Below, piece after piece: positions 14,979 to 21,217 of a stretch of 64,000 nucleotides of DNA. Made by a program: the position numbers and the translations under genes. This stretch comes from Salibacteraceae bacterium (GTDB taxonomy: Bacteria; Bacteroidota; Bacteroidia; Flavobacteriales_G; Salibacteraceae): the NCBI GenBank assembly GCA_018401875.1, contig JAGYJZ010000002.1, positions 1-64,000 of the forward strand, read 5' to 3'. Under the pieces are notes generated by a model. That model saw only the letters and a program-made list of their open reading frames with translations, made no database searches and had not been told where the DNA came from. Every line of letters starts with the position of its first letter. Position 1 is the first letter of the stretch.

Positions 14979-16790
14979 ATGGAGTTGTACCTCACACTTG
15001 GAATCATTGTCCTTGGTATTTTCCTTTTCGTAAAGGACTATTTCACGATCGATACGACTTCGCTATTGATCATGGCCATGTTTATCGTAACGGGCATTCT
15101 CAGTCCTGAAGACGGTTTCGCGGGTTTTATTCATCCTGCCACCGTCACACTCGGCTGCATGTTTGTGGTCAGCGCTGCGATTTTTAAAACGGGGATCATT
15201 GACGGATTGAGCACTCGAATTATTAGGCTCGCACGTATCCACTACATCATGGCGCTGATGGTGTTTTGTGTGGTAACGGCCGTGTTATCGGCTTTTATAA
15301 ATGATACAGCTGTAGTAGCCATTATGATTCCAATGGCCTTGGTGGTGTGCAAAGAAACCGGCATAAGTCCATCAAAATTGCTCATCCCAATCTCATTTTC
15401 AGCATGTTTTGGTGGCGCTTGCACGCTCATCGGCACGGGCACCAACATCCTCATCAGCGGCTACGCTCAAAAAAGCGGACTCGATGGTTTTGGCATGTTT
15501 GAATTTGCCCATGCTGCAATGGTGCTCGGTGGCATCGGATTGATCTACCTCTTTTTGATTGCACCATTTTTACTCCCAAAACGCAAAGGCACCAGCGACA
15601 CAGAATTGGTGCGCGAAGCAGAAAAGTATGTCGCAGAAATAAAACTCAACGCAGGCAGTGATGACGCAACTAAAGAGTTAAAATCATCGGCTTTGGTGCG
15701 TGATTTTAAAGCCGAAATCCTGTCCATCAACCGCAATTCTGAGCGCATTGAAAACTTCACACCCGATTTTAAATTCCGAGAAAACGATACCCTAAAATTA
15801 CTGATCAGTCCAAACAACTTGCTAAGCTTAAAACACGCAAATGGCTATGCAGTAAGCGGAGATGATGTGATTCGAGACTTGGAACCCAGCGAACCGACAT
15901 CTGAGCAGTCAACAAGCGACTCTTTGGCCGATTTCAGCAAGCGCATGTATGAGATTTTAATTCCCATCGGCTCTGAACTGGCAGGAAAGTCGATCAAGGA
16001 GTTAAACTTCAGGAGGGCTCACCGGGCGTCAGTATTGGCGATCAGGCATCGAAACGAAACGAAATTTCAACACCTGAATGAAGTCAAACTGAAAGAGGGC
16101 GATTTGCTTTTGGTGTACAGTTCAGAGAAAGATTTAACCCGGCTCACCGCACAAAATCAAGCGATTGTTGTGTCGCACTACGAAAAGAAGCGCATCGATT
16201 ACAAAAAAGCAATACCCGCCTTGCTCATCGCTGCTGGCGTGGTGGGTGCCGCTGCGCTCAACATCACTTCGATTTTAATGGCGGGCATTATCGGTTGTTT
16301 GCTGCTGGTGACCACATCCATTTTAAAACCACAGGAAGCCTATCAAGCCATCGATTGGAAAGTAATTTTTATGATGGCGGGGGTACTTTCGATGGGAATG
16401 GCGCTAGAAAACACCGGTGGTTCTGCGCTTATTTCAGTGGCAATTTTCAACGCCATGGGTGATTTAGACCCACGCATTACGCTGAGTCTGGTGTTCTTAG
16501 TTACATTTCTTTCCACCAATATTCTCTCTAGTCGAGCTTCAGCGGCACTGATGGCCCCGATCGTGATCAGCCTTGCTTCAGCAATGCAAGTGAGTGAGCG
16601 TCCTTTTTTAATTGCGGTGATGTTTGCGTGTGCGTTTACATTTATGACTCCTGTCTGCAATCCAACAAACACCATGGTGTACGCGCCTGGCAATTATACC
16701 TACACCGACTTTTTAAAGGTTGGAACACCGTTGAACATTATCATTTGGATTGCAGCCTCGTTTATTATCCCTCTATTTTTTCCCTTTTAG
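14979..16790 (+). CDS. SLC13/DASS-type anion permease with two cytosolic RCK-C (TrkA-C) domains
   Basis: 603 residues. About eleven hydrophobic segments in two blocks: the first covers residues 1-205 and the second about 410-600. Between them is a soluble region with two TrkA-C-like domains (FKAEILSINRNSERI..NDTLKLLISP and MYEILIPIGSELAGKSIKELNFRR..EGDLLLVYS). SLC13-type motifs are visible as INDTAVVAIMIPMA and GTGTNILISG in the first half and FLSTNILSSRASAALMAP in the second. Probably a sodium-coupled carboxylate or sulfate transporter gated by a ligand bound to the RCK-C pair; the substrate is unknown. DUF202 follows two bases later. Confidence 0.9.
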   Translation: MELYLTLGIIVLGIFLFVKDYFTIDTTSLLIMAMFIVTGILSPEDGFAGFIHPATVTLGCMFVVSAAIFKTGIIDGLSTRIIRLARIHYIMALMVFCVVTAVLSAFINDTAVVAIMIPMALVVCKETGISPSKLLIPISFSACFGGACTLIGTGTNILISGYAQKSGLDGFGMFEFAHAAMVLGGIGLIYLFLIAPFLLPKRKGTSDTELVREAEKYVAEIKLNAGSDDATKELKSSALVRDFKAEILSINRNSERIENFTPDFKFRENDTLKLLISPNNLLSLKHANGYAVSGDDVIRDLEPSEPTSEQSTSDSLADFSKRMYEILIPIGSELAGKSIKELNFRRAHRASVLAIRHRNETKFQHLNEVKLKEGDLLLVYSSEKDLTRLTAQNQAIVVSHYEKKRIDYKKAIPALLIAAGVVGAAALNITSILMAGIIGCLLLVTTSILKPQEAYQAIDWKVIFMMAGVLSMGMALENTGGSALISVAIFNAMGDLDPRITLSLVFLVTFLSTNILSSRASAALMAPIVISLASAMQVSERPFLIAVMFACAFTFMTPVCNPTNTMVYAPGNYTYTDFLKVGTPLNIIIWIAASFIIPLFFPF

Positions 16791-16792
16791 AC

Positions 16793-17140
16793 ATGAAAAA
16801 AATATTCAAAAACCTCACAAAGTTTACGGAAGACTACGAAAACAAAGAAGCGATCATCCTGCGCGATCATCTGGCGATGGAACGCACAAAACTGGCCAAC
16901 GAGCGCACGCTGCTCTCCTACTTGCGCACCTCGCTCTATTTGGTGCTCGGAGGAATCGCATTTCTAGGAATGAAAGATTTTGAGGAAATGCGAAACGTAG
17001 GCTACCTTTCACTCGCGTTAAGTGCATTGCTTTTCGTTATAGGCGTGGTGCGTTTCGTTCAGCTCAGAAAACACATGAAACGCATGTATGAACCGCTATA
17101 TAATGCCTCTTCGGAAGATTCGGAGGCAAGCAAAAGTTAA
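16793..17140 (+). CDS. DUF202 small membrane protein
   Basis: 115 residues from the ATG two bases after the transporter stop; an upstream frame extension overlaps the transporter and is not used. The DUF202 signature is clear: LAMERTKLANERTLLSYLRTSLYLVLGGIAF, followed by a second membrane segment YLSLALSALLFVIGVVRF and a basic tail. The family consists of small integral membrane proteins without a settled function (yeast Vtc1 is a distant relative). Tight coupling to the SLC13 transporter suggests an accessory role. Confidence 0.88.
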   Translation: MKKIFKNLTKFTEDYENKEAIILRDHLAMERTKLANERTLLSYLRTSLYLVLGGIAFLGMKDFEEMRNVGYLSLALSALLFVIGVVRFVQLRKHMKRMYEPLYNASSEDSEASKS

Positions 17141-17291: not shown

Positions 17292-17990
17292 ATGAGCAGA
17301 ATTTTACTGGTTGAAGATGAAGAAAGCGTAGCAGAGCTCATAAAACGAGGTTTGGTTGAAGACTTGTATGAGGTTATCCATGCAAAAGATGGATTGAGTG
17401 GATTGGAAATTTTAGAAAAAGAAGATATAGAACTCGTCATTCTCGACATATTACTGCCAAAAATGAATGGGCTTGAAGTGTGCAGAAAAATCAGAAGCCT
17501 TGGGCACAGAGACTTGCCCATACTTATGCTTACTGCGCTGAACACTCCTGAAAATGTAGTATTAGGGCTCGATAATGGAGCAGACGACTATTTAGGAAAA
17601 CCATTCAAACTTATTGAACTTAAAGCGAGAATTAGAACGCTATTAAGACGAGCAGAAACGAACAGCGCGCAGGGTCAACGGGAATCTGAAGTGTATTCTT
17701 TTGACGACATTGAGTTGAATAATACAACGAAGCAAGTGAGACGTAATGGTCAAGAAATATCTTTAACCTCCACTGAATTTCGGTTATTGTTGATGTTTAT
17801 GAAATATCCGGATAAAGTGCTAACACGAACGGTACTTTTAGATGATATCTGGGGCATCGACTTCGATATTGGAACCAACGTTGTGGACGTTTATGTCAAT
17901 TATTTGCGGAAAAAGCTTGACACTCAGAGTAACAAAAAGGTCATTCACACGGTGGTTGGAATGGGTTATGTATTGAGGGTCATTGAATGA
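17292..17990 (+). CDS. OmpR/PhoB-family response regulator
   Basis: 232 residues. Receiver domain with acidic pair E8-D9, phosphoacceptor D52 (LVILDILLP), the switch Thr in MLTA and the Lys in YLGKPF; then a winged-helix DNA-binding domain (about 130-230) with ISLTSTEFRLLLMFM, VLTRTVLLDDIWG and VDVYVNYLRKKLD, HTVVGMGYVL. It overlaps the kinase gene by 4 bp, so the pair is cotranscribed. The direct-repeat array right after the kinase gene (19359-19428) has the geometry this family recognises and is proposed as its target. Confidence 0.96.
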   Translation: MSRILLVEDEESVAELIKRGLVEDLYEVIHAKDGLSGLEILEKEDIELVILDILLPKMNGLEVCRKIRSLGHRDLPILMLTALNTPENVVLGLDNGADDYLGKPFKLIELKARIRTLLRRAETNSAQGQRESEVYSFDDIELNNTTKQVRRNGQEISLTSTEFRLLLMFMKYPDKVLTRTVLLDDIWGIDFDIGTNVVDVYVNYLRKKLDTQSNKKVIHTVVGMGYVLRVIE

Positions 17991-19363
17991 AAGCACAAAA
18001 TAAAATAATCATTTTATTGATCAGCACATTTCTGATTTACACTCTACTTTTTAGTGGCTTCATCTATTATTCAATTTCCAATTATGTATTTACTGATTTT
18101 TACAAGCGTCTTGAAATCAGAGCTGTAACAACAGCGAAAATCGTTTTAGAAGACCCGCTTCAAAGTCAGTCATTAAAGACAATTAGCAAAGAGTATTTAG
18201 AACGTCTCCCCAATCAGAAAGAGCACATTTTTCCAATAGAAAACGGTTTGGTAAAGGAAGAAGTAATTGGAGACATGCTTCCAAAATCTTTCGTTAATAC
18301 GGTATTAAAAGACGGACAAGGAACGTACAAATGGCAAGATGAGTTTCATGCTGGCATTAGGTACAAATTATCAGATGGCAGTAAAGAGTACATTGTCATC
18401 GTGTCGGCTGAAAACTACTTCACGACACACCACATGAGCTATTTACGAAATCTATTATTGACTTCGTTTGCATATGCACTATTGCTCATTGTAGCAACAT
18501 CTTTATTTATTTCTAAATCAATTATAAAACCGCTGAACAACATCATAGGTGAGGTGAAAAAAATTAGTTCAGAAAATCTTCATCTCAGGCTAGATCCAAA
18601 AGACAGTGCAGATGTTTTAAACAACTTAACATCAACATTCAATGACATGTTGAACAGATTAGAAACATCCTTTGAAACTCAGAAAAACTTCATCAGTAAT
18701 GCTTCGCATGAACTCAACACTCCGTTAACTGCCATTATAGGTGAGGCAGATTATGCACTATCGAAAGAGCGATCTAACGATGACTATAAACTTGCGTTAA
18801 CCAAAGTGATGGAACAAGCAGATAAGTTGGATCAAAAGACAAAGGCGCTTTTAATGCTCGCCCAAACAGGATTTAATGGGAAGTCACAAAAGTTTGATAA
18901 AGTGCGTGTTGATCAGCTAATACTTGACGTAAAAGAAACAGTACAAAACATCAACTCTGATTTCAAGGTGACTATTGATTTCAGTCTTTTACCTGAAAGT
19001 CCTGAGAAGTTAAAAGTGCGCGGGAATGAGCAACTGTTGCGTTTGGCAATAACAAACATTGTTATGAATGGTTGCAAATATTCAGACAGTCAACCTGTGC
19101 TAGTAGCGTTAGGAGCATCAGATTCGTATGTGATTGTAATCGTTCGTGACGCTGGAATTGGAATTCCTGAAAACGAATTAAAATATATTTACGACCCCTA
19201 TTTTAGAGCATCCAACACAAGCATGTATGAAGGGTACGGAATTGGGTTGCCATTGAGTAGAAATATCATTTTAATGCACGATGGACAATTGAATGTTTCT
19301 TCTTCGCAAAACAGGGGAACGACTGTGGAAATTAGGTTACCGCTCGGAAATTACACCCTCTAA
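17987..19363 (+). CDS. Sensor histidine kinase (two-membrane-segment, HAMP)
   Basis: 458 residues. Membrane segment at about 7-29, an extracytoplasmic sensor region of about 125 residues, a second membrane segment at about 157-178, a HAMP linker (SKSIIKPLNNIIGEVKK), then the dimerisation helix with the phosphorylated H241 in NASHELNTPLTAI. ATPase boxes: N (NIVMNGCKYSD), G1 (DAGIGIPENE), F-like YDPYFRAS and G2 (GYGIGLPLSRN). Partner of the upstream response regulator (4-bp overlap). The signal sensed cannot be read from the sensor region. Confidence 0.95.
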   Translation: MKAQNKIIILLISTFLIYTLLFSGFIYYSISNYVFTDFYKRLEIRAVTTAKIVLEDPLQSQSLKTISKEYLERLPNQKEHIFPIENGLVKEEVIGDMLPKSFVNTVLKDGQGTYKWQDEFHAGIRYKLSDGSKEYIVIVSAENYFTTHHMSYLRNLLLTSFAYALLLIVATSLFISKSIIKPLNNIIGEVKKISSENLHLRLDPKDSADVLNNLTSTFNDMLNRLETSFETQKNFISNASHELNTPLTAIIGEADYALSKERSNDDYKLALTKVMEQADKLDQKTKALLMLAQTGFNGKSQKFDKVRVDQLILDVKETVQNINSDFKVTIDFSLLPESPEKLKVRGNEQLLRLAITNIVMNGCKYSDSQPVLVALGASDSYVIVIVRDAGIGIPENELKYIYDPYFRASNTSMYEGYGIGLPLSRNIILMHDGQLNVSSSQNRGTTVEIRLPLGNYTL

Positions 19364-19428
19364 TCACTTTTTAATCTTTTCTCAAAAAGTCTAATGACAA
19401 TCTAATCTGGCTCTAATAGAGGCCTAAT
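19359..19428 (+). promoter_or_regulatory. Six YTAAT direct repeats, four at exact 11-bp spacing (predicted response-regulator operator)
   Basis: Hexamers TCTAAT start at 19359, 19390, 19401 and 19412; close variants TTTAAT and CCTAAT start at 19370 and 19423. Starts 19390-19401-19412-19423 and 19359-19370 are spaced exactly 11 bp, one helical turn, and the two groups are 20 bp apart. OmpR/PhoB-type regulators bind tandem half-sites at 10-11 bp spacing. The array lies directly after a gene pair encoding such a regulator and its kinase, and ends 10 bp before a consensus -7 box, the placement expected for an activator site replacing the -33 element. Confidence 0.75.
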
Positions 19429-19438
19429 GAGGTCGAAA

Positions 19439-19446
19439 TAGCTTTG
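19439..19446 (+). promoter_or_regulatory. Promoter -7 box TAGCTTTG
   Basis: Perfect match to the Bacteroidota -7 consensus TAnnTTTG, 16 bp before the ATG at 19463. No TTG -33 element is found at normal distance; that position is occupied by the CTAAT repeats, suggesting activator dependence. Confidence 0.65.
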
Positions 19447-19462
19447 CTGAAAATCTATTTCC

Positions 19463-19978
19463 ATGAATAGCGCAAGAAAAATTCTGGTTCCAACCGACTT
19501 TTCGGTGAGGTCATTGATGTTAGTTCCTGAAACAATTGAAAAAGCTAAAAACGAACGAATTGAGATTCTGCTATTACACGCCATTGTTCAATCATCTTCT
19601 ATTACTGATCTTTTATTTTTTTCAGAGGCTCAGTTTTTAAAAACCGCACAATCTGACGAATTTACAGATGCTTGCCGATTGATTCAAAACAAATATGATC
19701 AGCAACTTAAATCAATCTACCCACGCATTTTTATTGGCAATAATCAGTCGAATTTCAATAAGTTTTTGAACGCAAATAAAATCGAAGAAGCCATCATCAT
19801 GAACAAGTTCGAAATGAACTTCAAATCAAAACAAAGTTTTGATCCAAGCAATCTGCTGAAGAAAAGTCAGGTTAAATTAAACGAAATACAATGGCACCAG
19901 AGCACTGCTATCACCCATCAGCCCACGGGATCGCTTTCTGATCTGTTCTTTTCAAGAATTATTACAGCACAAAAATGA
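19463..19978 (+). CDS. Divergent universal-stress-protein-like (UspA) protein
   Basis: 171 residues. The start MNSARKILVPTDFS followed by SLMLVPETIEKAK and EILLLHAI matches the first strand-helix-strand of the UspA fold. The second half is divergent and lacks the usual GxxGxxG-S ATP-binding loop near the C-terminus, so nucleotide binding is doubtful. First gene after the predicted operator and promoter; its stop overlaps the next gene by 4 bp. Likely a cytosolic stress-responsive protein controlled by the upstream two-component system. Confidence 0.6.
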   Translation: MNSARKILVPTDFSVRSLMLVPETIEKAKNERIEILLLHAIVQSSSITDLLFFSEAQFLKTAQSDEFTDACRLIQNKYDQQLKSIYPRIFIGNNQSNFNKFLNANKIEEAIIMNKFEMNFKSKQSFDPSNLLKKSQVKLNEIQWHQSTAITHQPTGSLSDLFFSRIITAQK

Positions 19979-20445
19979 GATTAATCGTAGTTTCAATATT
20001 TCTCTTAGTATCAATAATTTTATCGAGTGCATTCATCGTGAGTGAAAGTTCGAGCCCAGAAGATTTAATTATTGGGAAATGGGAAGAAGTATCATGGGAA
20101 TATGAGCGCATCAATAACCATTATGGAACATTCGATTCAGAATTTGACGAACATCAACAAAGTGAAATAAGGCAAAACCTCCTTGTTCACGAAGCCGAAA
20201 TCTGGCATTTTGAAAAAGGAGGAAAGCTCTCGTTGACCAATACAGACCAAACAAAAAGGCACGTTCAATGGACGGCAAAAGGTAGAGGGCACATCCTCGA
20301 ACTAAATTACGAAGACGCCTTTCTCGAAGATTATCATATTCAAGATATTACGAAAGACAGCATGGTCATACACTTCAACTTTGACCTTCAAGTGCGAGGT
20401 ATTGTTAAACTGACTTTTGCTAAACTCCAAGAAAAAAATGCTTAG
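19975..20445 (+). CDS. Predicted exported lipocalin-like protein, unknown function
   Basis: 156 residues with an N-terminal hydrophobic segment (RLIVVSIFLLVSIILSSAFIV) that is a signal peptide or anchor. The mature part begins LIIGKWEEVSWEYE and continues with strands such as AEIWHFEKGGKLSL and GHILELNYED, the GxW pattern of lipocalin-like Bacteroidota proteins. Translationally coupled on both sides: 4-bp overlap with the Usp-like gene and 8 bp with the DUF1275 gene. Function unknown. Confidence 0.65.
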   Translation: MRLIVVSIFLLVSIILSSAFIVSESSSPEDLIIGKWEEVSWEYERINNHYGTFDSEFDEHQQSEIRQNLLVHEAEIWHFEKGGKLSLTNTDQTKRHVQWTAKGRGHILELNYEDAFLEDYHIQDITKDSMVIHFNFDLQVRGIVKLTFAKLQEKNA

Positions 20446-21217
20446 GAAATTTAGTGAATTTAGGAGCTATTCTGATAATCTAAGACTCGGATCAATCACA
20501 GCCTTTTCAGCTGGGATGGTCAATGTAATTTCCGTTATTGCATTCTTTGCATTTACTTCAAATGTAACAGGCCATTACGCCATACTTGCCCAAGAAATTT
20601 CAAAAGGTAACTGGTATCAAGCCGCTGTTGTTTTACTTTGGGTCTCTCTATTTTTAGGGGGTAGTTTTGTCTCAAACCTCATCGTAATTCACAGTTCTAG
20701 TCTGTTAGGGCGATATCTTTCACATGCAATACCAATATCAATGGAAATTCTCTGTTTATTAAGTGTTGGCTTGTATATGCAACATTACTACACCCAAACT
20801 TTACAAGAAACAGAAATGCTAGTGGGAATAATGCTATTTGCAATGGGAATTCAAAACGGCCTCACTGCAAGCATTTCAAATTTCAGCGTAAAAACAACGC
20901 ATCTTACAGGACTTACCACCGATTTAGGCATATTGTTTTCTATGTTTACCAAGAAAAAATATCGGAACGACATCAACCTTGTAAAAAGAGCTAAACTTTT
21001 AATAATCATAGCCAGTATGTATATGTTGGGAGGTGTGATTTCGGGCTATCTCTATATAAATATAGGTTACAAGACCTTCTATATTGTTTGTTGCGTTTTG
21101 GTTGGAATAATACTCTATGACTTCTATCATATCAGCTTATTAAAACTCAATCTCAGAAAGCAGAACAAAGCGAACAGTTTATCCCAAAAAGAAATTTACA
21201 ACATTGGCAATAGCTAA
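20438..21217 (+). CDS. DUF1275 (YoaK-type) membrane protein
   Basis: 259 residues from the ATG at 20438; the frame opens earlier at 20417, but that would overlap the previous gene further. About six membrane segments. Characteristic DUF1275 pattern: LGSITAFSAGMVNVISVIAFFAFTSNVTGH in the first helices, MGIQNGLTASISNFSVKTTHLTGLTTDLG in the middle, and a pair of helices at the end. The family is widespread, of unknown function, and some members are suspected transporters. Third gene of the proposed regulon downstream of the two-component system. Confidence 0.85.
   Translation: MLRKFSEFRSYSDNLRLGSITAFSAGMVNVISVIAFFAFTSNVTGHYAILAQEISKGNWYQAAVVLLWVSLFLGGSFVSNLIVIHSSSLLGRYLSHAIPISMEILCLLSVGLYMQHYYTQTLQETEMLVGIMLFAMGIQNGLTASISNFSVKTTHLTGLTTDLGILFSMFTKKKYRNDINLVKRAKLLIIIASMYMLGGVISGYLYINIGYKTFYIVCCVLVGIILYDFYHISLLKLNLRKQNKANSLSQKEIYNIGNS

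Follow-up and report, generated by a model that had tools for sequence, protein, structure and literature searches.

The locus lies in the 64-kb stretch of DNA that was analysed (hereafter, the window). It comprises a two-component system, an array of short direct repeats, and three further genes on the same strand. The repeats were also captured by a sequence model, R1, built from 20 related loci that could be aligned without gaps, with the window among them. The features are as follows.

17292-17990, + strand: OmpR/PhoB-type response regulator (RR), the presumed binder of the array (PF00072 and PF00486)
17987-19363, + strand: sensor histidine kinase, the presumed partner of the RR (HAMP, HisKA and HATPase_c)
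19359-19375, + strand: distal pair TCTAAT, TTTAAT, 11 bp apart, overlapping the kinase stop codon (sequence)
19390-19428, + strand: candidate proximal operator, four units TCTAAT, TCTAAT, TCTAAT and CCTAAT in an 11-bp step (sequence and model R1)
19439-19446, + strand: -7 box TAGCTTTG (TAnnTTTG; sequence, with the same offset as in relatives)
19463-19978, + strand: first predicted target gene, Usp-fold protein (AlphaFold model and Foldseek)
19975-20445, + strand: second predicted target gene, lipocalin-like barrel protein (predicted model and Foldseek)
20438-21217, + strand: third predicted target gene, DUF1275 protein (PF06912, E 1.2e-31)

The domain matches bear out the initial annotation, which had placed an OmpR/PhoB-type RR and its kinase just upstream of the repeats. 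The open reading frames, the PF06912 match, and the Foldseek results likewise confirm its three downstream genes (Usp-like, lipocalin-like, and DUF1275), each overlapping its neighbor by a few bases. Neither of the first two products has a Pfam or NCBIfam match. The structural model of the first (pLDDT 83) matches universal stress proteins in Foldseek (best E 6.6e-7, TM about 0.5), and that of the second (pLDDT 79) gives weak matches to lipocalins (best E 4.5e-4, TM 0.47). Pfam and NCBIfam revealed no recognizable metal efflux gene in the operon. The best NCBIfam match of the RR is the heavy-metal subfamily TIGR01387 (CusR/CopR/SilR), at 210.6 bits and below the cut-off of 279.2; that of the kinase is TIGR01386, at 186.5 bits and below the cut-off of 292.55. 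Against PhoB models, the RR scores 209.9 bits with TIGR02154 (cut-off 296.2) and 170.2 with NF053854 (cut-off 270). Upstream of the two-component system (14979-17140) lie a CitMHS-type transporter with TrkA_C domains and a DUF202 protein.

Six YTAAT pentamers start at 19360 (CTAAT), 19371 (TTAAT), and 19391, 19402, 19413 and 19424 (all CTAAT), in steps of 11, 20, 11, 11 and 11 bp. The six copies first reported, four of them at exact 11-bp intervals, are thus found where they were placed. The exact series consists of the last four units, which would form two putative RR dimer sites arranged head to tail. The first two units are a separate pair, out of step with the proximal four because 20 bp separate it from the next unit; it gives a partial R1 match (19359-19380, E 1.1) and may play a part in the operator. 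Two further details of the original description also hold: TAGCTTTG stands 10 bp past the last CTAAT (19424-19428) as a perfect -7 box, and the kinase stop codon TAA (19361-19363) falls within the first CTAAT. An inverted repeat at 19435-19461, with 11-nt arms that are 91% complementary and a 5-nt loop, covers the -7 box together with the sequence just ahead of the first target gene's start codon. Apart from this pair, only short inverted repeats were seen, and a palindromic operator was rejected. No second CTAATN6CTAATN6CTAAT occurs elsewhere in the window's genome (an assembly that is 82% complete). There, R1 finds a single strong site (E 2.9e-9, the window being 1 of the 20 training sequences), and the runner-up has an E value of 0.07.

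Related two-component loci were scored for four TCTAAT units in an 11-bp step (maximum 24, threshold at least 18) between -25 and +300 around the kinase stop. Of the loci whose RR shares at least 43% identity with that of the window, itself included, 30 were examined, and 28 of them have an array of at least 18/24 after the kinase. The scoring leaves out six loci: L047, whose contig ends in the kinase, and L052, L073, L077, L079 and L081, which have no kinase match (RR identity is at least 46% in L047 and L052). None of 14 loci with an RR at 36-43% identity reaches this score. The array is absent behind the kinase in L060 and L064 (RR 45%) and is also absent from the 10.7 kb of L052 (RR 49%, no kinase match beside it), where the best score is 16/24. 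In the 28 array loci, 60 shuffles of each never attained the observed score, and the controls (the opposite strand, the sequence ahead of the RR gene, and 10- or 12-bp steps) reach 17 at most. L070 and L072, both under the identity cut, score 17/24, a value attained by 0 and 1 of their 60 shuffles; the identity boundary is therefore not perfectly sharp. No array was found within 300 bp before the RR genes (L034 has no sequence there to scan). There is thus no sign of autoregulation through an array preceding the RR gene, and we rejected this candidate.

Among further RR loci, taken as the 29 best of a 392-genome draw, the array follows the kinase in 20 (19 of 28 after dropping G435:C5, which appears to be the same genome as training locus L040). 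The remaining 9 of the 29 show no score of at least 18 behind the kinase. Two of these genomes, G071 and G365, carry arrays before remote Usp-like/DUF1275 genes, and a third, G347, carries one before a SulP gene on another contig. Four more (G310, G188, G247 and G406) have R1 matches that are weaker or further downstream of the RR locus, and for G093 and G318:C1:3891299 no R1 match replaces the missing array.

The spacing between the array and the core promoter has a preferred value. With 28 loci registered on the array alone, the pattern TAnnnTTG (at least 4 of 5 letters) occurs at offset 10 in 19, 12 of them perfect; elsewhere between offsets 0 and 33, no position has it in more than 2. At offset 10, it is absent from 9 of the 28. 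The initial annotation had equated this arrangement with PhoB-type activation, the repeats taking the place of the -33 element. The first part is supported by the 11-bp direct repeats and the offset of 10. The second is only partly supported. In 20 loci aligned without gaps, chosen partly for their -7 pattern, TTG or TTTG occurs 19-23 bp before the -7 box in none, at 18 bp in one, and at 17 bp in two. However, a -33 motif is also unidentifiable in F. johnsoniae (PMC7366714), so replacement of the -33 element by the array is unproven.

We next considered how the array is distributed relative to the RR phylogeny. In a tree of RR sequences from which L047 and L052 were left out, a supported clade of 50 rows held 23 array-bearing RRs and 27 that were then unscored; once these had been scored, the array was seen directly behind the kinase in 41 of the 50 and was missing there in 9. 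A neighboring clade of 15 is mixed, with 5 bearing the array, 8 lacking it, and 2 unscored. The recognition helix is near-invariant among array-bearing RRs. At residue 204 of the window RR, tyrosine occupies 55 of 57 rows, and F, A, R or N occupies 15 of 18 array-less rows. That this residue might predict the array is only a hint, as 232 positions of related sequences were scanned, 29 of the 57 rows were then unscored for the array, and L065 has the tyrosine and no array. Within the window's own genus, twelve genomes (78-99% complete) lack both a close RR (best E 1.6e-34 to 4.5e-40) and a DUF1275 match at a 1e-10 threshold; 11 of the 12 also lack an R1 match. The RR, array, and target thus look to have been gained or lost together in this genus.

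The initial annotation had held that its reading would be contradicted if the repeats were kept in relatives lacking the two-component system. Among 60 relatives, 22 encode an RR at or above 43% identity, and R1 finds a match in 18 of these (at the RR-kinase locus in 17); of the 38 others, 1 has a match (G010, a TTTTAAT array). This comparison is partly circular because 12 of the 17 positive RR loci trained R1. A second survey covered 392 evenly drawn and mostly new Bacteroidota genomes; the draw includes G000, G054 and G059 of the first set, plus G435, whose contig C5 (L198) equals that of L040 in length and encodes an identical RR. R1 matches are found in 45 of 53 genomes with an RR at E <=1e-60 versus 12 of 339 others (Fisher p 1.6e-39, only a guide, given the relatedness among the genomes and a threshold chosen once the list had been viewed). 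The first fraction becomes 43 of 51 without G000 and G054, and 42 of 50 without G435 as well. Among the 12 genomes outside the RR group, eight have matches near a weaker RR that was also listed, and a ninth, G061, has its array behind an unlisted RR-kinase pair and before a CzcC-type gene. Eight genomes have a close RR and no R1 match; two of these, G125 and G162, still show arrays by direct scoring.

In total, the draw yielded 82 R1 matches in 56 genomes besides the window's, its own array being excluded. Of these, 55 adjoin a listed RR homologue, 54 on the same strand and 50 at 1.35-1.82 kb past the end of the RR, which is about where the kinase ends. Another 27 are unlinked, 23 of them in genomes with a listed RR; because the list comprises top matches, such arrays may adjoin an RR outside it, as in G061. 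Two RR-array pairs occur in 9 of the 56 genomes among the RRs listed (7 with a 5-kb limit on the distance), and paralogues thus seem to use a common code.

Several individual matches have features of their own. G247 carries seven R1 matches (contigs C1, C6, C16, C23 and C65), three of them clustered in the roughly 1.1 kb that follow a single RR homologue, and possibly has an enlarged regulon; other genomes with matches carry one to three. About six TTTTAAT-like units in an 11-bp step precede a gene with a signal-peptide-like start in G010 (L097, 1470-1540), and about four such units, also in an 11-bp step, lie on the minus strand of G049:C16 (L103, about 1505-1545). No RR open reading frame was seen in the 3-kb stretch around either series, which perhaps represents a sibling operator code of another regulator. 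The G053:C10 match (L099) was inspected along with these two. In G119 (L209), the match is weak (17/24), lies inside a long open reading frame, and may have arisen by chance. Two genomes of one genus, G279 and G371 (L203 and L204), have array-like sites away from listed RR homologues. These adjoin similar genes that by eye resemble MFS transporters, with a NarL-type-regulator-like gene beside them.

In three genomes the array is displaced. In G071 and G365, whose RRs are about 56% identical to that of the window, no array lies behind the kinase. Instead, the array sits 19 kb (G071) or 47 kb (G365) away from the RR. A Usp-like gene starts about 98 bp past it, with DUF1275 next (E 9.7e-28 in G071 and 1.3e-27 in G365). 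The G071 proteins are 32% (Usp-like) and 58% (DUF1275) identical to those of the window. In G347, the array precedes a gene that fuses a SulP transporter to a carbonic anhydrase domain, on another contig from the RR. This single gene (L202 1109-3391, minus strand, G347:C184) contains both PF00916 and PF00484, a fusion that hints at a link between the SulP class and bicarbonate transport. Judged by such comparisons, the array is part of the target operon.

To survey the targets, we classified the first gene past the array at 57 loci (the 28 scored RR-kinase loci and the 29 loci L142-L170), assigning classes by BLAST cluster with Pfam run on examples. It is Usp-like in 23 (22 without L148, a copy of L040), SulP in 11, CzcC-type in 10, CzcB-type in 3, and none of these in 10. 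The operator word is alike in the Usp, SulP, and Czc classes. Within the Usp class, the third unit is the least regular of the four: 6 of 22 arrays have TCTTAT or TCTTAA there, and the window itself has TCTAAT. At three loci, two from Pedobacter (L038 and L039) and one from Pararcticibacter (L040), a different gene follows the Usp-like gene and replaces the lipocalin-like and DUF1275 genes; it encodes a bestrophin in L039 (PF25539, E 1.5e-64), and the three versions cluster by BLAST.

Given these comparisons, we propose that the array is the tandem operator of the neighboring CusR/PhoB-type RR and forms a class-II activated promoter driving the Usp-like/lipocalin-like/DUF1275 operon, a reading to which we assign a probability of about 0.84. 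The kinase would phosphorylate the regulator, whose dimers would bind head to tail along TCTAAT half-sites 11 bp apart, with the four proximal units taking two dimers. The last dimer, 10 bp upstream of the TAnnTTTG -7 box, would contact the primary sigma factor and thereby activate the operon, as PhoB does. We infer binding by this particular RR, the need for phosphorylation, the dimer stoichiometry, and activation rather than repression. The original suggestion that the neighboring RR binds the repeats and activates the downstream genes is supported by the tracking of the RR clade, the single distance to TAnnTTTG in 19 of 28 loci, and the displaced arrays at target genes in two genomes.

Among the alternatives, the one that survives best is that the RR binds the array and represses the operon, with de-repression upon signal, since OmpR-type regulators can activate or repress. 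Nevertheless, the units stop about 10 bp before the -7 box and leave it uncovered in the aligned loci, and class-II activators typically stand at a preferred distance from the core promoter. Repression is unlikely. It is less likely again that another DNA-binding protein or a paralogous RR reads the array, its closeness to this two-component system reflecting operon history. This idea would fit the several genomes in which a similar motif recurs in at least two RR-array pairs, as well as the code common to operons of different classes; where paralogous RRs in one genome have similar arrays, sequence does not assign each array to one RR. Yet the array follows this RR clade across the 392 genomes and adjoins its RR even where the target gene differs.

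A role as a 3' feature of the kinase gene (a terminator, RNA element, or constraint on the coding end) is suggested by the array's position directly behind the kinase stop in most loci, but it is barely credible. Searches revealed neither a terminator-like site in 19300-19500 nor an Rfam family anywhere in the window, the array keeps a preferred distance to the -7 box, and in G071, G365, and G347 it precedes a target gene instead of following the kinase; on these grounds we rejected a terminator or RNA element. Finally, the chance that this A+T-rich motif is a repeat without function is negligible: it recurs in many relatives, shuffles of the loci fail to reproduce it, and 300 shuffles of the 64-kb window that preserved its dinucleotides never placed more than 2 CTAAT in an 11-bp series (2 in 19 shuffles, 1 in 281) compared to the 4 observed, with at most 5 YTAAT per roughly 70 bp (2 of 300) compared to 6.

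If the array is the RR's operator, four TCTAAT units in an 11-bp step, 10 bp before TAnnTTTG, would predict from sequence the targets of a whole uncharacterised RR clade in Bacteroidota. The system would also be a natural case of a regulator-operator pair that is kept while its target genes change, and the apparent sharing of an operator by paralogous regulators would make insulation against cross-talk directly testable. It is conceivable, if doubtful, that several paralogous RRs per cell share one operator code for unrelated operons (Usp/DUF1275, SulP transporter, and Czc-type efflux), making the array a node of a cross-wired envelope-stress network in many Bacteroidota. In that case, specificity would come not from separate operator sequences but from kinase-RR pairing alone or from minor differences, for example in the third unit, which varies more.

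In the literature searched (titles and abstract openings), we recognized no prior description of a TCTAAT box. The kind of operator is already known; the TCTAAT code, its spread, and the swapping of its targets appear undescribed there. Among known regulators, the CusR/CopR/CzcR/SilR family (TIGR01387) provides the best NCBIfam match of the RR, and in relatives the array precedes CzcC- or CzcB-type efflux genes. However, both RR and kinase fall below the family cut-offs, and the window operon has no recognized metal efflux gene. The E. coli CusR box, for its part, is a palindrome-like site.

The closest parallel in architecture is the PHO box, which ends about 10 bp before the -10 element. Its 11-nt direct-repeat units are bound head to tail by PhoB, which contacts the sigma factor, and the E. 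coli unit is of the CTGTCAT type (PMC4415409). The window array also consists of head-to-tail repeats in an 11-bp step, with 10- and 12-bp steps reaching no more than 17/24, and across array loci the core promoter element mostly lies at one close distance (offset 10 in 19 of 28). It is nonetheless not a PHO box proper: the RR falls under the PhoB cut-offs, the unit is TCTAAT and not CTGTCAT (a weak distinction alone, as the consensus varies among species), and the first targets are Usp-like, SulP or Czc-type genes. The core element differs as well, being the Bacteroidota TAnnTTTG. The primary sigma promoter consensus of this phylum combines this -7 element with TTTG at -33 (PMC7366714). Array loci share the -7 pattern at its preferred place; they depart from the consensus upstream, where the 20 aligned loci lack TTG or TTTG at 19-23 bp and the array fills that stretch.
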